NCBI RefSeq assembly: GCF_001428805.1
Contig: NZ_LMIS01000001.1
Location: forward strand, 1,538,976 to 1,602,975
DNA: 64,000 nucleotides
DNA from: Aeromicrobium sp. Root236
GTDB lineage: Bacteria; Actinomycetota; Actinomycetes; Propionibacteriales; Nocardioidaceae
Reading direction: 5' to 3'
Shown here: positions 43,266 to 51,572 of the stretch, in pieces
Numbering within the stretch: position 1 is the stretch's first letter
How the letters are laid out: each line of letters begins with the position of its first letter
Notes under the pieces: model-generated
Seen by the model: the letters and a program-made list of their open reading frames with translations, nothing else
What the model was told of the DNA's origin: nothing
The model's database searches: none
Made by a program: the position numbers and the translations under genes

Positions 43266-43826
43266 GTGAGCTCATCTCGGGCAGGATTCGTCGACCGTCG
43301 CGACGCCGCCATGGCATCGGTACTGGCCGGCGGGGTGGTCGTGATCCTCGGTTACGCATCGGGGATCGGCATCACCCCGACCGACGCGGCGACCACGGCG
43401 ACCCCGGCACCGCAGAAACCCCCCGCTGCGGTGGCCCCGGCGGCTCCCGTCGTCACTCCCCCCGCCGCCGCTGCGATCGCACCGCCGATGGCCATGCCGG
43501 GCCCCAGCACGATGCCGGACATGTCGATGCCGGCCGACTCGCCCTCGCCGGTGGCCACCGACCCTGAGCCCACACCCACCGAGCCCGCGCCGACCGAGCC
43601 GGCCGACACGTGCCCGCCGTCCGTGCTCGCCAGCGTCCCGGCGGTCGGCCAGCTGACCTCGTCCTTGCTCTCGTCCGTGCTGTCCACGACGCCGCTCGTG
43701 AGCGACCTCGCCGGTCCACCGGTCAAGGGCAAGACGCCGGGCCCGCTGACCTGCCTCATCGGTACGGTCGTCGGCCCGACCTGCTGCACCGAGACGGCCG
43801 CGACCGCCGAGACGGACGACCAGTGA
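43266..43826 (+). CDS. Secreted or membrane-anchored Met/Pro-rich protein
   Basis: 186 aa. One N-terminal hydrophobic helix (MASVLAGGVVVILGYASGIG) after RRDAA, then a Pro/Ala/Thr linker containing a Met cluster, PPMAMPGPSTMPDMSMP, resembling Cu(I)-binding Met motifs, then a C-terminal part with five Cys (DTCPP, LTCLIG, TCCTE). No family recognised. GAAGGGGAAC precedes GTG 43266. GTGA overlap with the CopCD gene points to a copper role. Confidence 0.72.
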   Translation: MSSSRAGFVDRRDAAMASVLAGGVVVILGYASGIGITPTDAATTATPAPQKPPAAVAPAAPVVTPPAAAAIAPPMAMPGPSTMPDMSMPADSPSPVATDPEPTPTEPAPTEPADTCPPSVLASVPAVGQLTSSLLSSVLSTTPLVSDLAGPPVKGKTPGPLTCLIGTVVGPTCCTETAATAETDDQ

Positions 43827-45127
43827 TCGGCCGTCGCGGGCTAGCGCAGCTCGGCGCACTCGCCGTCACCACGACCGCTCTCCTGACGCTGGGCCTGGCC
43901 TCGCCGACGCAGGCCCACGACGAGCTCGAGAAGTCGACGCCCGCCACCGGGTCGACGCTGGAGAAGCTGCCGTCGTACGCGACCCTCGTGTTCAGCGAGT
44001 CCCTCGGCCCCGACGACCTCACCGTCACGTCCGACGGCACCCGGCTCAAGGTCCTGGCGGTGGCCGGCAAGCCCGCGACCCTCAAGGTCGACCTCCGCAA
44101 GGTCAAGCCCGCCAAGACCGTCGTGCTCAGCTGGCAGGCCGAGGACCCGCACGACGGTCACGAGAGCTCCGGCGCGATCGCCCTGCACGTCAAGGAGAGC
44201 GATGCCGGGGCTGCCACGACAGGCGCCGACGCGAATGCGCCACCCGACGACTCACGCCTCATCACCTGGGTGACGGTCTCGGCCCGCATCGTCGGCTACC
44301 TGGCCATGGCCGTGTTCGTCGGCGGCCTCCTGTTCCTCTCGCTGCTCTGGCCGGCCGGCGCCAAGGAGCGCCGCAGCCGACTGCTGCTGGGCATCTCCGT
44401 CGCCGCCGGCATCGCCGCAGCCGCCGCCTCCGAGGCCGTGGTGGTGTGGCGCTCCTCGGGTGGGATGACACTCCGTGAGGCACTCAACGAGGACTTCGGG
44501 CGGGTCACCACCGCGATGGCCCTCCTCTGGCTGCTGGCGGCCGTGGTCGTCGCGGCCGTGTTCCAGCGCGGCGAGAACGTCGTACGAGAGCTCCCCTGGC
44601 GGGTCGCAGCTCTGATCGTGGCTGCCGGCCTCATCCGTACGACCGGGATGAACGCGCACGCGACGCAGGGCGCCCAGCCGACCTGGGGCGCCGCCGCCGA
44701 GTTCCTCCACCTCGTCGGCATCAGTGCCTGGGTCGGCGGCCTCACCGTCATGACGGTGTGCCTGCTCCCCCGCCGCAGCATCGCCGAGCTCGAGCGCATC
44801 GTGCCGAAGTTCTCGACGATCGCGATGGTCTCGGTGCTCGTCATCGTCTCGTCCGGCCTGATCCTCAGCTGGCAGATCATCAGCTCCGTCGACGGGTTCT
44901 GGCACACCCACTACGCCCGCGTCCTGTTCATCAAGCTCGCGCTCTTCGCCACGGTCCTGCTCGCGGCCATGAAGAGCAAGAGCTGGGTGGGCCGCAACCT
45001 GACCAGCTCGACCCACCGGGGCTCCCCGGTCGGCGCGTTCATCGCGTCGGTCGCGACCGAGACCGTGCTGGTCATCGCCGTGCTCGGCGCCGCAAGTGTC
45101 CTGGTCACCTCCAGCCCAGGCGTGTGA
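43823..45127 (+). CDS. CopC-CopD fusion, copper resistance/uptake membrane protein
   Basis: 434 aa. Signal peptide ending ASPTQA, then a CopC domain (residues ~31-125: HDELEKSTPATGSTL, His near the mature N-terminus as Cu ligand, and DPHDGHESSGAIAL with further His). C-terminal CopD domain (~148-430) with eight hydrophobic helices, including VGYLAMAVFVGGLLFLSLLW and WVGGLTVMTVCL. CopC/D fusions import copper or supply it to cuproproteins. Directly followed by the repeat-domain proteins and cupredoxins. Confidence 0.92.
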   Translation: MIGRRGLAQLGALAVTTTALLTLGLASPTQAHDELEKSTPATGSTLEKLPSYATLVFSESLGPDDLTVTSDGTRLKVLAVAGKPATLKVDLRKVKPAKTVVLSWQAEDPHDGHESSGAIALHVKESDAGAATTGADANAPPDDSRLITWVTVSARIVGYLAMAVFVGGLLFLSLLWPAGAKERRSRLLLGISVAAGIAAAAASEAVVVWRSSGGMTLREALNEDFGRVTTAMALLWLLAAVVVAAVFQRGENVVRELPWRVAALIVAAGLIRTTGMNAHATQGAQPTWGAAAEFLHLVGISAWVGGLTVMTVCLLPRRSIAELERIVPKFSTIAMVSVLVIVSSGLILSWQIISSVDGFWHTHYARVLFIKLALFATVLLAAMKSKSWVGRNLTSSTHRGSPVGAFIASVATETVLVIAVLGAASVLVTSSPGV

Positions 45128-45168: not shown

Positions 45169-45876
45169 ATGAATCCCTCACCGTCCACCAGTCCATTCCG
45201 GTCACCCGAGCTGCGCAGCCGCAGTCTCGTCGTGATCGCCCTGCTGGCCGCGTTGGCGGCGGCCGCGTCGTTGGTCGCGCTGCGTACGACGTCGACGACG
45301 ACCACCGACGCACTGGCGCCGGCGGCCTCGGTCACGTCCACGAGCAGCTCGGGCGGTCTCCTCGGTGGCCTGCTGCCGACCACCAGCCTGGTCACCACAC
45401 CGGTCGTCACGACGGCACCGGCCGCAGCGCCCGTGGCAGCAGCACCCAGCGGCACGAAGGCCAGCACACCGGCAACGACGACGCCCGCACCGGCAGCCAC
45501 GACCGATCCCATGGCGATGCCGGCGACGAGCGACGTCTGCACGGGGCTCGAGTCGTCGGTCGACGTGTTCCTGCAGCACCTGTACGCCGCACACCTCGAG
45601 ACGAGCGTCGGCCAGCAGGTCACCGACGCCCTGAACCTCGACCAGTACCTCAAGACCCACCTGGTCCTGGTCGAGAACATGCTCAAGCCGCTCCTCGGAG
45701 GCACCCAGCAGACGCTGGACGCCTTCCTCCAGCACGTCTACTCGGCTCACCTCGAGACGAGCCTCGGTCAGCAGGTCAATGACGCCCTGTCGGTCGACCA
45801 GTACGTCAAGACCCACACCGTGTGGGTCGAGAGCCTGATCAAGCCGCTCGTCGGCGCCGATCTCAGCTCGTGCTGA
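45169..45876 (+). CDS. Secreted protein with duplicated His-rich repeat domain (type A)
   Basis: 235 aa. N-terminal membrane helix (residues ~19-38), a long Thr/Ala/Pro linker with one MAMP motif, then a compact domain from Cys124 to Cys235 containing two ~48-residue repeats (133-178 and 185-230). Each repeat has FLQHxYxAHLETS, GQQVxDAL, DQYxKTH and a VE/KPL end, giving three conserved His per repeat. Family unknown to me. The same domain is fused to a cupredoxin in the next gene, which suggests a metal-handling role. Confidence 0.75.
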   Translation: MNPSPSTSPFRSPELRSRSLVVIALLAALAAAASLVALRTTSTTTTDALAPAASVTSTSSSGGLLGGLLPTTSLVTTPVVTTAPAAAPVAAAPSGTKASTPATTTPAPAATTDPMAMPATSDVCTGLESSVDVFLQHLYAAHLETSVGQQVTDALNLDQYLKTHLVLVENMLKPLLGGTQQTLDAFLQHVYSAHLETSLGQQVNDALSVDQYVKTHTVWVESLIKPLVGADLSSC

Positions 45877-45905
45877 CCCAGTCCCCCATCCAGACAACCG
45901 GAGTT

Positions 45906-45928
45906 CTGGCCGAGTCGCAGTCGGCCAG
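45906..45928 (+). terminator. Hairpin between the two repeat-domain genes
   Basis: CTGGCCGA / TCGGCCAG, perfect 8-bp stem, 7-base loop GTCGCAG, 30 bases after the upstream stop. No U-tract, so it is probably a partial terminator or an RNA-stability element. It shares the core GGCCGAGTCGCA with the hairpin after the next gene. Confidence 0.5.
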
Positions 45929-45967
45929 CCACCCGGGTGAACCACAACCCACAGAAGGAGTGGCTCG

Positions 45968-46933
45968 ATGAGTCCACGCATGACCAGCACGACCGACACC
46001 GACAACCGCCTGACCCCGAAGCGTTGGGGTCTCATGACTCTCGTGATCGGCGGTGTGCTCACCGCGATCGTGTCCGTGGCCGGGCTGTCCGCGGGGGCGT
46101 CCGAGTCCTCGGACACCCTCACCGCGAGCGCCGCGACCACGAAGGCCAAGGCAGCGGCGGTCGCCGCTGCTGCCACCACGAAGACGTCCGCCACCGCCAC
46201 GAGCACCAAGGCAACCGCGGCCGTCACCAAGCAGGTCATGATCGAGAACTACAAGTTCTCGCCCGCCGCACTGACCGTCGCCGTCGGCGACACCGTCAAG
46301 TGGACCAACATGGACACCGCGCCGCACACCGTCACGGTCACCAGCGGTCCGGTGAAGTTCAACTCCGGCAACCTCGCCAAGGGTGAGAGCTTCTCCTACA
46401 CGTTCAAGACGGCCGGTACGTACTCGTACTACTGCGCCGTGCACCCGGACATGACGGCCAAGGTGACGGTGACGGGTTCCAGCACGACCCCGACCCCGAC
46501 GCCGACGCCCACGAAGCCGACGCCGACGCCCACCGGGACGCCGACCCCCACACCGACGCCGACGATGCCGCCCATGGGTGGCGGAGATGACGTCTGCGCC
46601 GGCCTGGAGTCGACGATCAACGTGTTCCTGCAGCACCTCTACTCCGCGCACCTCGAGACGAGCCTCGGGCAGCAGGTCACCGACGCCCTGAACCTCGACC
46701 AGTACCTCAAGACCCACCTGGTCCTGGTCGAGAACATGCTCAAGCCCTTGCTGGGCGGCGTGCAGTCGACGCTGGACACGTTCCTGCAGCACGTCTATGC
46801 GGCGCACCTGGAGACGAGCCTCGGCCAGCAGGTGACCGACGCTCTCGCGATCGACCAGTACGTCAAGACGCACACCGTGCTCGTCGAGAACATGATCAAG
46901 CCGCTCGTCGGTGAGGATCTGAGCTCCTGCTAG
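45968..46933 (+). CDS. Cupredoxin fused to duplicated His-rich repeat domain (type B)
   Basis: 321 aa. Membrane helix/signal at ~20-40; cupredoxin domain ~88-169 with type-1 copper ligands His120 (APHTV), Cys156, His159 and Met162 (YYCAVHPDM); a PT-repeat linker (173-200) with MPPMGGGDD; then the repeat domain Cys210-Cys321, nearly identical in sequence to that of the previous protein. The fusion places the unknown domain next to a copper site. AGAAGGAG precedes the ATG. Confidence 0.88.
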   Translation: MSPRMTSTTDTDNRLTPKRWGLMTLVIGGVLTAIVSVAGLSAGASESSDTLTASAATTKAKAAAVAAAATTKTSATATSTKATAAVTKQVMIENYKFSPAALTVAVGDTVKWTNMDTAPHTVTVTSGPVKFNSGNLAKGESFSYTFKTAGTYSYYCAVHPDMTAKVTVTGSSTTPTPTPTPTKPTPTPTGTPTPTPTPTMPPMGGGDDVCAGLESTINVFLQHLYSAHLETSLGQQVTDALNLDQYLKTHLVLVENMLKPLLGGVQSTLDTFLQHVYAAHLETSLGQQVTDALAIDQYVKTHTVLVENMIKPLVGEDLSSC

Positions 46934-46946
46934 GAGCGAGACAGAT

Positions 46947-46985
46947 GTGGTGGTCCGGCCGAGTCGCAACCGGCCGGACCACCAC
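46947..46985 (+). terminator. Strong hairpin after the cupredoxin-repeat gene
   Basis: Perfect 15-bp stem (GTGGTGGTCCGGCCG at 46947-46961, complement at 46971-46985) with a 9-base loop AGTCGCAAC. It lies 14 bases after the stop and 45 before the next start. Could end or weaken read-through into the last two genes of the set. Confidence 0.65.
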
Positions 46986-47029: not shown

Positions 47030-47680
47030 ATGTCGTCTCCCCTTTCCACCACCTCCCGGAAGGGTCCGCGGGTCCTGCTCGCCAGCCTCCTCGCCGCCCT
47101 CGCCGTCATGGTGTGGCCGGCCTCCGAGGCCTCGGCGGCGACACACCAGATCACGATCAAGAGCTATGCGTACGGATCCGGCTCCATGAGCATCACGCAG
47201 GGTGACACCGTCACGTGGACCAACCAGGACAGCGTCCCGCACGACGTCGTCGTCACCAGCGGACCCGTGAAGTTCCGGTCGCCGATGCTCACCAAGGGCA
47301 AGAGCTGGAGCTACACGTTCACCCAGGCCGGCGCCTACTCCTACACCTGCAGCGTCCATCCCGACATGCACGCCACGATCTCGGCCAAGGCCAAGGCGGT
47401 CGCACCCGCACCCGCGGCGACGACACCGGCCGCCGTTGCACCGACGGCACCCGCCACCACCGACCCGAAGACGGCCACCACGACCCCCGCACCGGCAGCG
47501 ACGCAGGCTCCGGCGCCCAGCACGGCGTACGTCGCGACGACGGCCGAGGACGACAACCCGTCGCTGGACCCGCTGCTCCTCTTGCTCGGCCTTTCGACAG
47601 CGATCGTCGTGTTCTGCCTGCTCCTGATGGCCTCCCGCCCGCACGCTGCGACCCCTGAAGGAGCCCCCGATGGCGACTGA
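47030..47680 (+). CDS. Membrane-anchored cupredoxin (plastocyanin-like)
   Basis: 216 aa. Signal peptide ending SEASA; cupredoxin ~38-120 with ligands His71 (VPHDV), Cys107, His110 and Met113 (YTCSVHPDM); Ala/Thr/Pro linker; C-terminal transmembrane helix ~181-201 and a short cytoplasmic tail. Holds copper or transfers electrons at the outer face of the membrane. GGAAGGAC precedes the ATG. Its stop overlaps the next start by 11 bases. Confidence 0.92.
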   Translation: MSSPLSTTSRKGPRVLLASLLAALAVMVWPASEASAATHQITIKSYAYGSGSMSITQGDTVTWTNQDSVPHDVVVTSGPVKFRSPMLTKGKSWSYTFTQAGAYSYTCSVHPDMHATISAKAKAVAPAPAATTPAAVAPTAPATTDPKTATTTPAPAATQAPAPSTAYVATTAEDDNPSLDPLLLLLGLSTAIVVFCLLLMASRPHAATPEGAPDGD

Positions 47681-49085
47681 CACCCTGGCGCCCGTCCGCA
47701 GCAAGGACAAGGAGCGCAAGCCCGGCGGTGGCCTGTTCCGCGCGTTCTGGCGCTGGCACTTCTACGCCGCGTTCATCGTCGCCCCGATCCTGCTGGTGCT
47801 GGCGTCGACCGGCCTCATCTATTTGCTGCGGTTCCAGATCGAGCCCCTGATGCACGCCGACGTCATGAAGGTCGAGCAACCGGCCGGCGTGACGAAGCAG
47901 GTGCCGTACGAGGACCAGCGCGCCGCGGTCGCCAAGGCGTACCCGAAGGCCACGATCGCATCGATGACCGAGCCCAAGGGCAAGGACCGCTCGACCGACT
48001 TCTACCTCAGCCTTCCCGACGGCTCGAGCCGCGACGCGTACGTCGACCCGTGGACCGGCGAAGTGCTCGGCGAGCTCAACCCCGACACCACGCTGAGCGG
48101 GCTGGCCGTCCGGCTGCACACCAACATGATGCTCGGCTCCACGGGCGACGTCCTGATGGAGCTGGGCGCATGCTGGGCGATCGTGATGGCGCTGACCGGC
48201 TACTACCTGTTCATCCGGGGCCGAGCCGCGAGGCTGCGACGCAAGCTCACCGGTGCGGCGGGATCGGCGATGCGGAGCCGGCACGCCGTCATCGGGTCGG
48301 TCGTCGGCGCGAGCCTGCTGATCCTGCTGATCTCGGGGCTCCCGTGGACCGCGTTCTGGGGCAAGCATGCGCAGACGATGGCGACCGACCACAGCAGCTC
48401 GATGTGGGGCAGCGACCCGGGCGGCGTGTCCAAGAAGGGGTCCACCCTCGACGAGTCGCTGCCGCACAGCCACGCCCACGAGATCCCCTGGGCTCAGGGC
48501 GACTCGAAGGTCCCGCAGTCGGGCAAGCCCGGCAAGGAGGTCTCGATCGCCAACATCGACACCGCCGTCGCCGTCGCTGACCGGGCGGGGTTGCACCACC
48601 CGCTCACCATCGCGCTGCCCGCCGACGACATGGGCGTCTTCTCCGCCATCAGCTACGCGTTCCACGACCCGTCGCGCGAGAAGACCGTGCACATCGACCA
48701 GTACGGCGGACAGGTCGTCGGCACGTACGGCTTCGCCGACTATCCCGCGCTCGCGAAGATCGTCTCGCAGGGAATCGGCCTGCACGAGGGTCGCAGCTTC
48801 GGCCCGGTCAGCTTCTGGGCCGCTGCCTTGTCGTGCCTCATGGTGATCTTCATGTGTGTCTCGGGACCGATGATGTGGTGGCGCCGGCGGCCCAAGAGCG
48901 CCGGCTCCGTCGCAGCGCCTCGCGGACGGATGCCGTTGCGCAGCAGCCCGCTGCTCGCGGTGGCGATCGTCGCGCTCGGCGTGTTCCTGCCGTTCTTCGG
49001 CATCACGCTGCTGATCGCGCTGCTGGTCGACCAGATGATCCTGCGCCGCATCCCACGACTGCAGACCTGGTTCAACGTGGTCTAG
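47670..49085 (+). CDS. PepSY-domain membrane protein
   Basis: 471 aa. PepSY_TM architecture: helix FYAAFIVAPILLVLASTGLI, external PepSY domain, two further helices, a His-rich external loop (SSSMWGSD ... LPHSHAHEIPW), second PepSY-like part and terminal helices. Relatives are flavin- or haem-linked iron/copper reductases and are common next to metal uptake genes, so a metal-reductase role is plausible here. Its stop shares CTAG with efeB. Confidence 0.88.
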   Translation: MATDTLAPVRSKDKERKPGGGLFRAFWRWHFYAAFIVAPILLVLASTGLIYLLRFQIEPLMHADVMKVEQPAGVTKQVPYEDQRAAVAKAYPKATIASMTEPKGKDRSTDFYLSLPDGSSRDAYVDPWTGEVLGELNPDTTLSGLAVRLHTNMMLGSTGDVLMELGACWAIVMALTGYYLFIRGRAARLRRKLTGAAGSAMRSRHAVIGSVVGASLLILLISGLPWTAFWGKHAQTMATDHSSSMWGSDPGGVSKKGSTLDESLPHSHAHEIPWAQGDSKVPQSGKPGKEVSIANIDTAVAVADRAGLHHPLTIALPADDMGVFSAISYAFHDPSREKTVHIDQYGGQVVGTYGFADYPALAKIVSQGIGLHEGRSFGPVSFWAAALSCLMVIFMCVSGPMMWWRRRPKSAGSVAAPRGRMPLRSSPLLAVAIVALGVFLPFFGITLLIALLVDQMILRRIPRLQTWFNVV

Positions 49086-50374
49086 GCAAAGAGCCCTTCG
49101 CCCCAGTAGCCCTTGCGGCCGACGCCGGGCGGGCAGGCGAACAGGCCCGAGCCGACGTGGACGATGTACTCGTTGAGCAGGTCGTTCTGCGATCCGGCGA
49201 GGGAGTGCTGGACCTGGACGAACTGCTTCTCCGGGTCGCGCTGGTAGGCGATGAAGAACAGCCCGGCCGACAGCTGCCCCAGGCCGTCCGAGCCGTCGAC
49301 GAAGTTGTAGCCGCGACGCAGGAGCTTCGCACCCTTGTTGAAGTCGGGGTGCGCCAGGCGTACGTGCGACTTCATGTCGATGACCGGCGCGCCACGATCG
49401 TTCTTCTTCTTGAAGTCGATCTTGGCGAACTCGTCGCCACCGGACAGCGGCCCGCCGGACCCCTTGGCCCGGCCGATGATGTTCTCCTGGCCCTCGAGCG
49501 GCTCGCGGTCCCAGATCTCGATGCGCATGTTGATCTTGCGGCTGACGAGGTAGGAGCCGCCGACCAGCCAGTCGGGCCCGTCCTCCTTGGGCACCCAGAC
49601 GAAGTCCTCGACGTCCTTATTGTCCTCGACCTTGATGTTGGCCGTGCCGTCCTTGAAGCCCAGCATGTTGCGGGCGGTGACCTGCGCGGACGAGGTCGAG
49701 GACGTGCGCCCGAAGCCCATCTGCGAGTAGCGCACCGAGGCCCGGCCGAACGCGATGCGTACGAGGTTGCGGACCGCGTGCACCGCGACCTGCGGGTCGT
49801 TGGCACAGGCCTGGATCGCGAGGTCGCCGTCGCACAGCGCCGGGTCGAGGTCGTCGCCCGAGAACGCCGGCAGGTCCTTGAGCCGCTCGGGCAGCTTGCC
49901 TTCGAGGCCGAACCGGGCCTTGCCCTTGGCATCGACGAACAGGCTGCGGCCGAAGCCCACCGTGATCGTCAGTCCCGAAGGCGGCAGGCCGAGCGCCTCA
50001 CCGGTGTCCTCCGGAGGGGCGAACGGCGAGCCCGACACCGCACCGAACTTCCCGACGTCGTTGCCCTGCGTCATCTGCCGCGACGCCTCGGTCCAGTCCT
50101 TGAGCAGCGAGATCAGGTCGACCCGCTCCTCGCTCGTCATGTCGAGCGTGACGAAGTAGAGCCGGTCCTGGGCCGGCGTGACGATGCCGGCCTGGTGGGC
50201 CCCTTCGAACGGGACGGGCTTGGCGTCGGGGTCGGGCACACCAGCTGTCGGCTCGTCGCTCTGGCGGCCCACGGCGTAACCACCGCCGGCACCGACCGCG
50301 AGCGCGCCGATCCCGGCCGCTCCGATCAGCTTGCGCCGGGAGAGGCCTGACGTGATCTCGTTCTGCTCGGACAT
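49082..50374 (-). CDS. efeB: Dye-decolourising haem peroxidase / deferrochelatase EfeB
   Basis: 430 aa. Twin-arginine signal SRRKLIGAAGIGALAVGAGG; Dyp-type GxxDG motif as GFKDGTANIK; the C-terminal LSAGLFFIAYQRDP and FVQVQH are family-typical. Exported folded with haem by Tat. It supports ferrous iron uptake with EfeO. Only 9 bases separate it from efeO; the permease gene efeU is absent from this locus. Confidence 0.93.
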   Translation of the reverse strand: MSEQNEITSGLSRRKLIGAAGIGALAVGAGGGYAVGRQSDEPTAGVPDPDAKPVPFEGAHQAGIVTPAQDRLYFVTLDMTSEERVDLISLLKDWTEASRQMTQGNDVGKFGAVSGSPFAPPEDTGEALGLPPSGLTITVGFGRSLFVDAKGKARFGLEGKLPERLKDLPAFSGDDLDPALCDGDLAIQACANDPQVAVHAVRNLVRIAFGRASVRYSQMGFGRTSSTSSAQVTARNMLGFKDGTANIKVEDNKDVEDFVWVPKEDGPDWLVGGSYLVSRKINMRIEIWDREPLEGQENIIGRAKGSGGPLSGGDEFAKIDFKKKNDRGAPVIDMKSHVRLAHPDFNKGAKLLRRGYNFVDGSDGLGQLSAGLFFIAYQRDPEKQFVQVQHSLAGSQNDLLNEYIVHVGSGLFACPPGVGRKGYWGEGLFA

Positions 50375-50383
50375 CAGTTCAGG

Positions 50384-51511
50384 CTACGCAGACTCGGCAA
50401 CCACGGCGGCGACGCGGCTGATCGGCTCGCTGACGGCGGCCACCAGGTCAGACAGGCGCTTGACCTGTGCCTTGGTGAGCTTGTCGTAGAACGTCCAGTC
50501 GCCGCTGTCGTCCTGGTACTGGTCGAGGTCGTCGTCGAGCGCCTTGAACTTGGCGTCGAGCTCCTTGACCAGGGCGGGGTCCTGCTTCTCCAGCACCGGG
50601 CGCAGCGCCGCGATGGCGGCCTCCGAGCCCTCGATGTTGGCCTTGAAGTCCCACAGGTCCGTGTGGCTGAACTCGTCCTCCTCGCCGGTGATCTTGCTCG
50701 TCGCGACCTCGTCGAGCAGGCCCTTGGAGCCCTGTGCCAGCTCGAGCGCCGTCAGCGGTGCGTCCTTGCCGAGCGCCACGATCTTCTTGACGTTGGCGAG
50801 CAGGTCGTCGGCGTACGGCGCCATGCCCTCGGTGTTGTTGTCGACCCAGAGCTGCTTCTCGATGCGGTGCCAGCCGGTGAAGTCGCGCTTCTCGGCCTTG
50901 GCGTCGGCCTCGCGGCCGTCGGTCAGCGGGTCGAGGTCGCCGAACTTCTCGGCGACCGGCTCGATGCGCTCCCAGTACGTACGGGCGATCGGGTAGAGTC
51001 GCTTGGCCTCCGTGACATCGCCCTCCTTGACCGCCGTGACGAACTCCTCGGTCTTGGCGATCAGCGCGACGGTCTGCGAGTTGACGTAGCGCTCGTACGA
51101 CGTCGCCGCGGCCTTGAGCTGCTGCGAGTCGGACAGCTTCTTGGCGGCCTCGCCGGTGACCGTGATCTTCTGACGAATGCCGTCGCCGACCATGCCCGGC
51201 TTGCAGGCGCCTTCGTACGTGCCCTTGGGCAGGTCGACGACGAGGTTGCGGGTCAGGCCGGGTCCGACGTTCTCGACCTCGCCCATGATGCGGTCACCGT
51301 CTGCGTAGACGTAGAACTCGGTGACCTTGCTGCCCTTGTTGGTGACCTTGAACGTCGACGGGCCGGCCTTGAGGTCGGTCTTCGAGACCTCGCACGTGGA
51401 GTCCGAGGCGCTGACCGTGAGGCCACCCGAAGAGGACTTGGGGTCGTCGGCACAGGCCGTCAGGCTCAGCGCGGCGATCGTCAGCACGCTGAGCGTGGCA
51501 AGAGGCTTCAT
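50384..51511 (-). CDS. efeO: Iron uptake lipoprotein EfeO (cupredoxin + M75 domains)
   Basis: 375 aa. Lipoprotein signal ending LSLTAC; a cupredoxin-like N-domain (residues ~35-130, CEVSKTDLKAGPSTFKVTNKG and a later Cys in EGACKPGM) and the M75/imelysin-like domain with the HxxE metal motif in TGWHRIEKQLW. EfeO binds Fe and Cu and feeds the EfeU channel. An IdeR/DtxR-like box sits 43 bases upstream. ATG 51511 follows AAGGAC with a long 12-base spacer. Confidence 0.94.
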   Translation of the reverse strand: MKPLATLSVLTIAALSLTACADDPKSSSGGLTVSASDSTCEVSKTDLKAGPSTFKVTNKGSKVTEFYVYADGDRIMGEVENVGPGLTRNLVVDLPKGTYEGACKPGMVGDGIRQKITVTGEAAKKLSDSQQLKAAATSYERYVNSQTVALIAKTEEFVTAVKEGDVTEAKRLYPIARTYWERIEPVAEKFGDLDPLTDGREADAKAEKRDFTGWHRIEKQLWVDNNTEGMAPYADDLLANVKKIVALGKDAPLTALELAQGSKGLLDEVATSKITGEEDEFSHTDLWDFKANIEGSEAAIAALRPVLEKQDPALVKELDAKFKALDDDLDQYQDDSGDWTFYDKLTKAQVKRLSDLVAAVSEPISRVAAVVAESA

Positions 51512-51553
51512 TGCAGGGAATGTCCTTCGGGGATGCGGGGCTCCACCTCGAAA

Positions 51554-51572
51554 TAAGGCTAGCCTCACCATG
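51554..51572. promoter_or_regulatory. IdeR/DtxR-like iron box for efeOB
   Basis: TAAGGCTAGCCTCACCATG matches the 19-bp consensus TTAGGTTAGCCTAACCTAA at 13 positions, including the central GG-TAGCCT-ACC core. Located 43-61 bases before the efeO ATG, where it can block the promoter when iron is plentiful. Confidence 0.78.

Follow-up and report, generated by a model that had tools for sequence, protein, structure and literature searches.

A duplicated His-repeat domain encoded beside CopCD and cupredoxin genes in Aeromicrobium: a candidate extracytoplasmic copper module

The DNA analyzed here, referred to as the window, is a stretch of 64,000 nucleotides from Aeromicrobium sp. Root236 (NZ_LMIS01000001.1, positions 1,538,976 to 1,602,975), and all coordinates below are positions within it. 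Two neighboring genes of the window, orfA and orfB, end in nearly the same 112-residue domain (95 of 112 residues identical), each copy built of two repeats with invariant His residues. The repeat family is real, yet rare and patchy within the genomes searched, and the two-repeat domain is accompanied by CopD and a further cupredoxin at every locus that we surveyed. We propose, giving the idea about an even chance of being correct, that the domain is a new helical extracytoplasmic module with metal sites that would act as a Cu(II) buffer or relay for import by CopCD. We regard it as a new domain in a system of familiar type, in which copper is handled outside the cytoplasm with the help of CopCD.

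The duplicated domain and its repeats

An earlier note on this DNA had claimed that the two genes share a C-terminal domain made of two internal repeats, with six fixed His residues per protein and a Cys at each end, and that the domain is joined to a cupredoxin in one of the two proteins; each of these features was borne out. Comparison of the first with the second repeat gave scores of 183 and 209 in the two domains, while the best scores among 2000 shuffles per domain were 47 and 46. The His residues fall at domain positions 14, 19, 41, 66, 71, and 93 in both proteins, three to a repeat, and Cys occupies positions 1 and 112 in both. The cupredoxin is in orfB, where the sequence PHTV...YYCAVHPDM displays what we take to be the type-1 ligand pattern H..C..H..M. 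The DNA encoding the two domains is 85.7% identical, with 15, 6, and 27 differences at codon positions 1, 2, and 3, respectively. The ratio of nonsynonymous to synonymous substitution rates of the domain was 0.17 to 0.23 across seven comparisons, indicating purifying selection.

We aligned 47 repeats, drawn from 20 two-repeat domains, two three-repeat domains, and a single-repeat domain. Six columns, His, Ala, His, Gln, Asp, and His, were invariant in all 47, and they hold down to domains that are 30% identical to that of orfB; an Asp ahead of the third predicted helix was kept in 44 repeats and a Ser in 42. The earlier note had based its suggestion of metal binding on fixed His residues, and their fixity stands, though His is not conserved alone, since Ala, Asp, and Gln belong to the same invariant set. 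Left out of the alignment were the domain at locus L005 (two repeats with the same His by eye, in a broken gene), a fragment of a single repeat at locus L047, and a match in genome G887, which is described below.

Both Cys residues were present in 20 of the 20 two-repeat rows of the domain alignment, a pattern suggesting that a disulfide may clasp the ends of the domain together. The two-repeat form is the commonest, and versions with one and three repeats exist. The three-repeat form, in genomes G053 and G085 of one genus, has no flanking Cys. The single-repeat form, in genome G567 from another class, has a Cys on each side and places the repeat ahead of the cupredoxin rather than behind it. 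A cupredoxin is fused in the single one-repeat protein and in both three-repeat proteins found (L037, L038, and L039). A single repeat can thus stand alone, and both the number and the placement of the repeats vary.

Structure prediction of the 112-residue domain, which the earlier note had put forward as a check, yielded a helical bundle at moderate AlphaFold confidence, only one of five models exceeding 75 in the predicted local distance difference test (pLDDT). With 12 alignment rows, the pLDDT was 65.7; with an Amycolatopsis member placed first and 14 rows, it was 75.5, with a predicted template modeling score of 0.62 and an all-helical model. The predicted helices span residues 4 to 19, 23 to 31, 33 to 53, 58 to 76, 80 to 88, and 90 to 110, so that each repeat would consist of a long, a short, and a long helix. 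On a helical wheel, with the hydrophobic direction computed without the invariant columns, the angle to that direction is 27 degrees for the second His in helix 1 and 5 degrees for the His in helix 3. Two of the three His residues per repeat are thereby predicted to face the core, a placement that supports a site there without being decisive, since about one-fifth of helix positions (3 of 14 and 3 of 17) fall within 30 degrees by chance.

The earlier note had recognized no described family with this repeat. That holds insofar as there is no clear curated fit in Pfam, NCBIfam, or, by sequence, the PDB, and our paper searches turned up no description of the repeat; it requires amendment in that DUF5663 (PF18908) reaches its cutoff, marginally, for one isolated domain. 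Neither sequence comparison nor Foldseek gave a significant match in the PDB (E up to 0.001 for Foldseek). Membership of the domain in DUF5663 as a diverged relative, a reading silent on function and compatible with the others discussed here, is a marginal lead that we keep but estimate as improbable. The isolated orfB domain scored 24.4 bits against a cutoff of 23.7 (E 4.4e-5), DUF5663 was listed for 10 of 22 repeat members at E up to 1, and in silico replacement of the first His, the third His, or the Asp by Ala lowered the score by 2.6 to 4.6 bits. However, the two full-length proteins scored 20.4 and 19.8 bits, below the cutoff, and the best stretch covers only profile positions 18 to 52 (35 of 84). 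DUF5663 was listed neither for the one-repeat domain nor for the three-repeat domain of L013, and a genome-scale search with it gave no match in the window genome (G000) or 19 relatives at E up to 0.1. The resemblance is to part of a repeat and to a family of unassigned function, under whose name we found no paper among those searched. With the same E limit of 1, hemerythrin HHE (PF01814) was listed for 2 of the 22 members, and its best E of 0.023 is not significant. Hemerythrin HHE is a His-containing helical bundle with an HHE motif; that motif was not seen in the repeat domain.

The same features may be read structurally, with the domain serving as an oligomerization or partner-recognition module whose His, Asp, and Gln residues cap and pack helices rather than bind metal. 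The conserved Ala, Gln, and Asp positions could suit packing and helix caps, the domain sits behind a long Thr/Pro linker, and the marginal match is to a family without an assigned function. Yet three His residues per repeat, kept in 47 of 47 repeats and two of them core-facing, are hard to explain through packing alone, and we regard such a docking role as unlikely.

A cassette with CopD and cupredoxins

The neighborhood survey used query proteins and the repeat profile and comprised 20 loci, of which 16 carry a two-repeat domain. Copper genes, for which the earlier note had advised looking around the domain, were present at all 16. The order was the same throughout, beginning with a gene that we call ProTM and continuing with CopD, the repeat gene, and another gene for a cupredoxin. 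CopD thus lies upstream of the repeat gene in 16 of 16 loci, which come from Aeromicrobium, Kutzneria, Amycolatopsis, and other genera. In 15 of them, repeat and cupredoxin are parts of one protein; the exception, L005:4086-6363 of Kutzneria sp. 744, has the cupredoxin and the repeat domain in different frames, reflecting a broken gene or a draft error. CopC and CopD form a single protein at 10 of the 16 loci, whereas four Amycolatopsis loci have CopC as a separate gene on the opposite strand; it was not found in the locus stretch of the two Kutzneria. A repeat-only copy stands beside the fused copy in three Aeromicrobium loci and in L004 and L007. In the tree, the copies from Aeromicrobium group together in a single clade (99/99), separate from the Amycolatopsis copies, which makes a separate origin or homogenization of the duplication probable.

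Copper is the likeliest ligand given these constant partners, CopD and the cupredoxins. Another metal (Zn, Fe, or Mn) could be bound instead, for example by a sensor or scavenger, but among the flanking genes annotated, those kept beyond Aeromicrobium are CopD and cupredoxins, and we consider another metal quite unlikely. The earlier note had also placed PepSY and EfeOB around the domain along with CopCD. All are present in the window, where CopCD and PepSY_TM share a plus-strand gene run with orfA and orfB and where EfeB and EfeO are on the opposite strand; among the 20 loci examined, PepSY, EfeB, and EfeO were not found beyond the three from Aeromicrobium.

In 13 of the 16 loci (L003 to L008, L040 to L045, and L048), the repeat gene and the last cupredoxin gene are separated by a YceI-like gene, which the three Aeromicrobium loci lack. 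Pfam scored YceI above the cutoff for L006 and L007, slightly under it for L004, and weakly for L044; the genes in L040, L042, and L003 were missed by Pfam and were grouped via local similarity only. A full YceI domain also occurs near the single-repeat gene of G567, at L037:3109-3918. YceI proteins bind isoprenoids, and their presence can be counted toward a role in heme binding or electron transfer, in which core His residues of two helices would ligate heme and the cassette, with its cupredoxins, YceI-like protein, and PepSY_TM, would form a surface redox chain rather than a metal uptake system. Core-facing His residues on two helices of a bundle would suit such a site, and in the window the cassette abuts a DyP peroxidase gene. 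The invariant Asp, Gln, and third His, however, exceed the needs of a heme site, DyP and EfeO adjoin the cassette only in Aeromicrobium, and CopD accompanies every two-repeat domain; a heme site has, in our judgment, a low probability.

A further locus, L047:6511-7797 in genome G1002, contains a YceI-like gene, a second cupredoxin, and the fragment of a single repeat, with no CopD in the 14 kb around it, and looks like a decayed cassette.

Proposed role in copper handling

We infer that the domain binds metal and that the metal is copper. Core-facing invariant His residues, together with Asp and Gln, suggest a ligand site in each repeat, so that every repeat of about 50 residues would contribute one ligand set (His, His, Asp/Gln, His) on its long-short-long helical unit, and a disulfide between the terminal Cys residues would close the array. 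The module would be exported and would sit outside the cytoplasmic membrane, alone in orfA or on a type-1 cupredoxin in orfB. There, the repeats might capture or buffer copper and exchange it with the CopC domain, from which CopD would import it, while the cupredoxins might receive copper or set its redox state. A more specific version, which we hold tentatively and think somewhat doubtful, is that each repeat (H-x4-H ... Q-x2-D ... H) is a self-contained mononuclear copper site, present one to three times in series before or after a cupredoxin and clasped by a disulfide in the one- and two-repeat forms, the whole serving in actinobacteria as a cell-surface copper store and relay with CopCD.

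Several observations weigh against a copper module. In the AlphaFold run that gave 75.5, the other four models had pLDDT values of 49 to 58, and helix 1 has its first His away from the hydrophobic face, at -113 degrees. No CopD was found near the one- and three-repeat genes, within short stretches of 4.4, 16, and 9.8 kb. The repeat is rare, occurring in 5 of 394 genomes of the class. Many Cu(I)-binding proteins are typically enriched in Met or Cys, and the domain is not.

The role suggested for the repeat domain is modeled on that of YcnI beside YcnJ in Bacillus. In Bacillus subtilis, a CopC-CopD protein has an extracellular partner that could exchange and store Cu(II): exchange of Cu(II) between YcnI and the CopC domain of YcnJ is reported in vitro, and it is suggested there that copper is stored extracellularly and imported afterwards (PMC12362106). 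In copper-starved cells, YcnJ is reported to support respiration (PMC13344008). YcnI, the Bacillus partner, is a DUF1775 protein, whereas the candidate here is a predicted helical domain of His repeats that in most cases is joined to a cupredoxin. CopI (PMC13308877) is likewise a cupredoxin-like protein with additional His-rich copper-binding parts, but those are His/Met-rich stretches rather than a conserved repeat of predicted helices, and the NCBIfam CopI model (NF051440) scored 13 bits against a cutoff of 280. The Csp copper storage proteins are helical bundles that hold copper, one studied example being periplasmic (PMC12510493 and PMC9484137). The Csp four-helix bundle is lined with Cys and holds many Cu(I), whereas each window domain has fixed His and two Cys residues, both terminal. 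When folds were compared, Foldseek returned nothing within an E limit of 0.001, and a second comparison covered 79 chains only.

Little is said to be known of the way in which bacteria recognize and collect extracellular copper (PMC12362106). If the proposed copper role is correct, the repeat domain, fused to a cupredoxin and encoded beside CopD, would be a directly testable partner for extracellular copper capture and would add a protein domain without a clear description in Pfam, NCBIfam, or the PDB.

Gene layout of the window and occurrence of the repeat

The features of the locus are collected in Table 1. On the plus strand, the order is ProTM, CopC-CopD, orfA, orfB, the second cupredoxin, and PepSY_TM, followed on the minus strand by EfeB (a DyP peroxidase) and EfeO (a cupredoxin plus imelysin) at 49082-51559. 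Genes overlap at ProTM/CopCD and at cupredoxin/PepSY_TM, and the gaps between CopD and orfA, orfA and orfB, and orfB and the cupredoxin gene are 41, 91, and 96 bases. No iron permease was recognized among eight further window genes that were scanned.

Table 1. Positions of the cassette genes, repeats, and hairpins in the window
Feature	Positions	Strand	Match or remark
ProTM, first cassette gene: N-terminal hydrophobic segment, Pro/Thr-rich tail	43266..43826	+	counterpart of N-terminal 40 residues in 16/16 two-repeat loci
CopC-CopD fusion	43823..45127	+	PF04234 CopC 6.7e-10; PF05425 CopD 4.4e-17
orfA (235 aa): hydrophobic N-terminal segment and Ala/Thr/Pro linker ahead of the two-repeat His domain; lacks a cupredoxin	45169..45876	+	
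orfA His-repeat domain, 112 aa, with Cys at 1 and 112	45538..45873	+	
Repeat A1	45559..45693	+	profile E 4.0e-25; A1 itself among the query profile rows
Repeat A2	45715..45849	+	profile E 1.1e-23; A2 itself among the query profile rows
RNA hairpin following orfA, with the same loop as the orfB hairpin	45906..45928	+	intergenic z -2.05
orfB (321 aa): hydrophobic N-terminal segment, then type-1 cupredoxin and Thr/Pro linker ahead of the two-repeat His domain	45968..46933	+	
Cupredoxin domain of orfB, residues 86-168	46223..46471	+	PF00127 E 2.7e-12
orfB His-repeat domain, 112 aa, with Cys at 1 and 112	46595..46930	+	
Repeat B1	46616..46750	+	profile E 3.6e-25
Repeat B2	46772..46906	+	profile E 2.8e-24
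15-bp perfect inverted repeat after orfB	46947..46985	+	intergenic z -4.07
Second cupredoxin, C-terminal hydrophobic segment	47030..47680	+	PF00127 1.2e-9
PepSY_TM protein, 11-base overlap with cupredoxin gene	47670..49085	+	PF03929 3.9e-56

A Pfam scan of ProTM gave no match. Its hydrophobic N-terminal segment lies around LGYASGIG, and some relatives have Leu/Val-rich tails flanked by Cys. In the CopC-CopD protein, the CopC and CopD domains are both above the Pfam cutoff within one polypeptide; its presumed GTG start overlaps the stop codon of the preceding gene, and a His probably stands right behind the signal-peptide cleavage site, which likely falls between QA and HDEL.

The genes carrying the repeat are followed by hairpins. 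The sequence GGCCGAGTCGCARYCGGCC matches exactly at 45908-45926, in the hairpin after orfA, and is the core common to the hairpins after orfA and orfB. None of 200 shuffles of the orfB intergenic sequence folded as well as the sequence itself. A GC-rich RNA hairpin occupies the corresponding place after the cupredoxin-repeat gene in 15 of the 16 two-repeat loci, and one locus could not be judged.

Relatives of the repeat were found in Aeromicrobium, Kutzneria, Amycolatopsis, a family designated f20 (that of genome G191), and two deeper lineages. A scan of genome contigs gave eight loci, two from Aeromicrobium, two from Kutzneria, and four from Amycolatopsis; one of them, L001, is from the repeat-bearing Aeromicrobium sp. 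Root344. We drew genomes at several taxonomic levels; the draws overlap, and the window genome is counted wherever it was included. In the class draw, the single-sequence query and the repeat profile each gave 5 genomes, the count already mentioned. The repeat was present in 2 of 396 genomes of the phylum draw, 3 of 49 of the genus draw, 2 of 5 from the order of G053, and 1 of 24 from the class of G567. Matches were obtained in 9 of 297 f20 genomes, including G1002, with its fragment, and G887. The G887 match was rejected as chance, spanning about 21 residues (E 1.5e-4) of an otherwise unrelated frame. A gene flanking the f20 cassette L040 is 82.6% identical to a gene of a Streptomyces sp. W9 plasmid, the next record, from Nonomuraea, being 69.9% identical; from this gene one might tentatively guess that f20 is the Streptomycetaceae.

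A cupredoxin-only query of 117 genomes of the order matched 11, including the window genome, and 12 other genomes of the same genus were listed without a match. The matches fell in 14 places, and in the frames of five loci outside the window genome (L064, L067, L070, L072, and L073), no repeat was seen by eye. The second cupredoxin, used as a query on 101 f20 genomes, matched 12; the best four, G208, G753, G191, and G754 (E 2e-37 to about 1.3e-32), all have the repeat, and the fifth-ranked genome, G182, followed at E 5.7e-23. The G182 protein encoded at L081:1357-3375 is very long, starts with a cupredoxin, and has a second cupredoxin-like motif inside.
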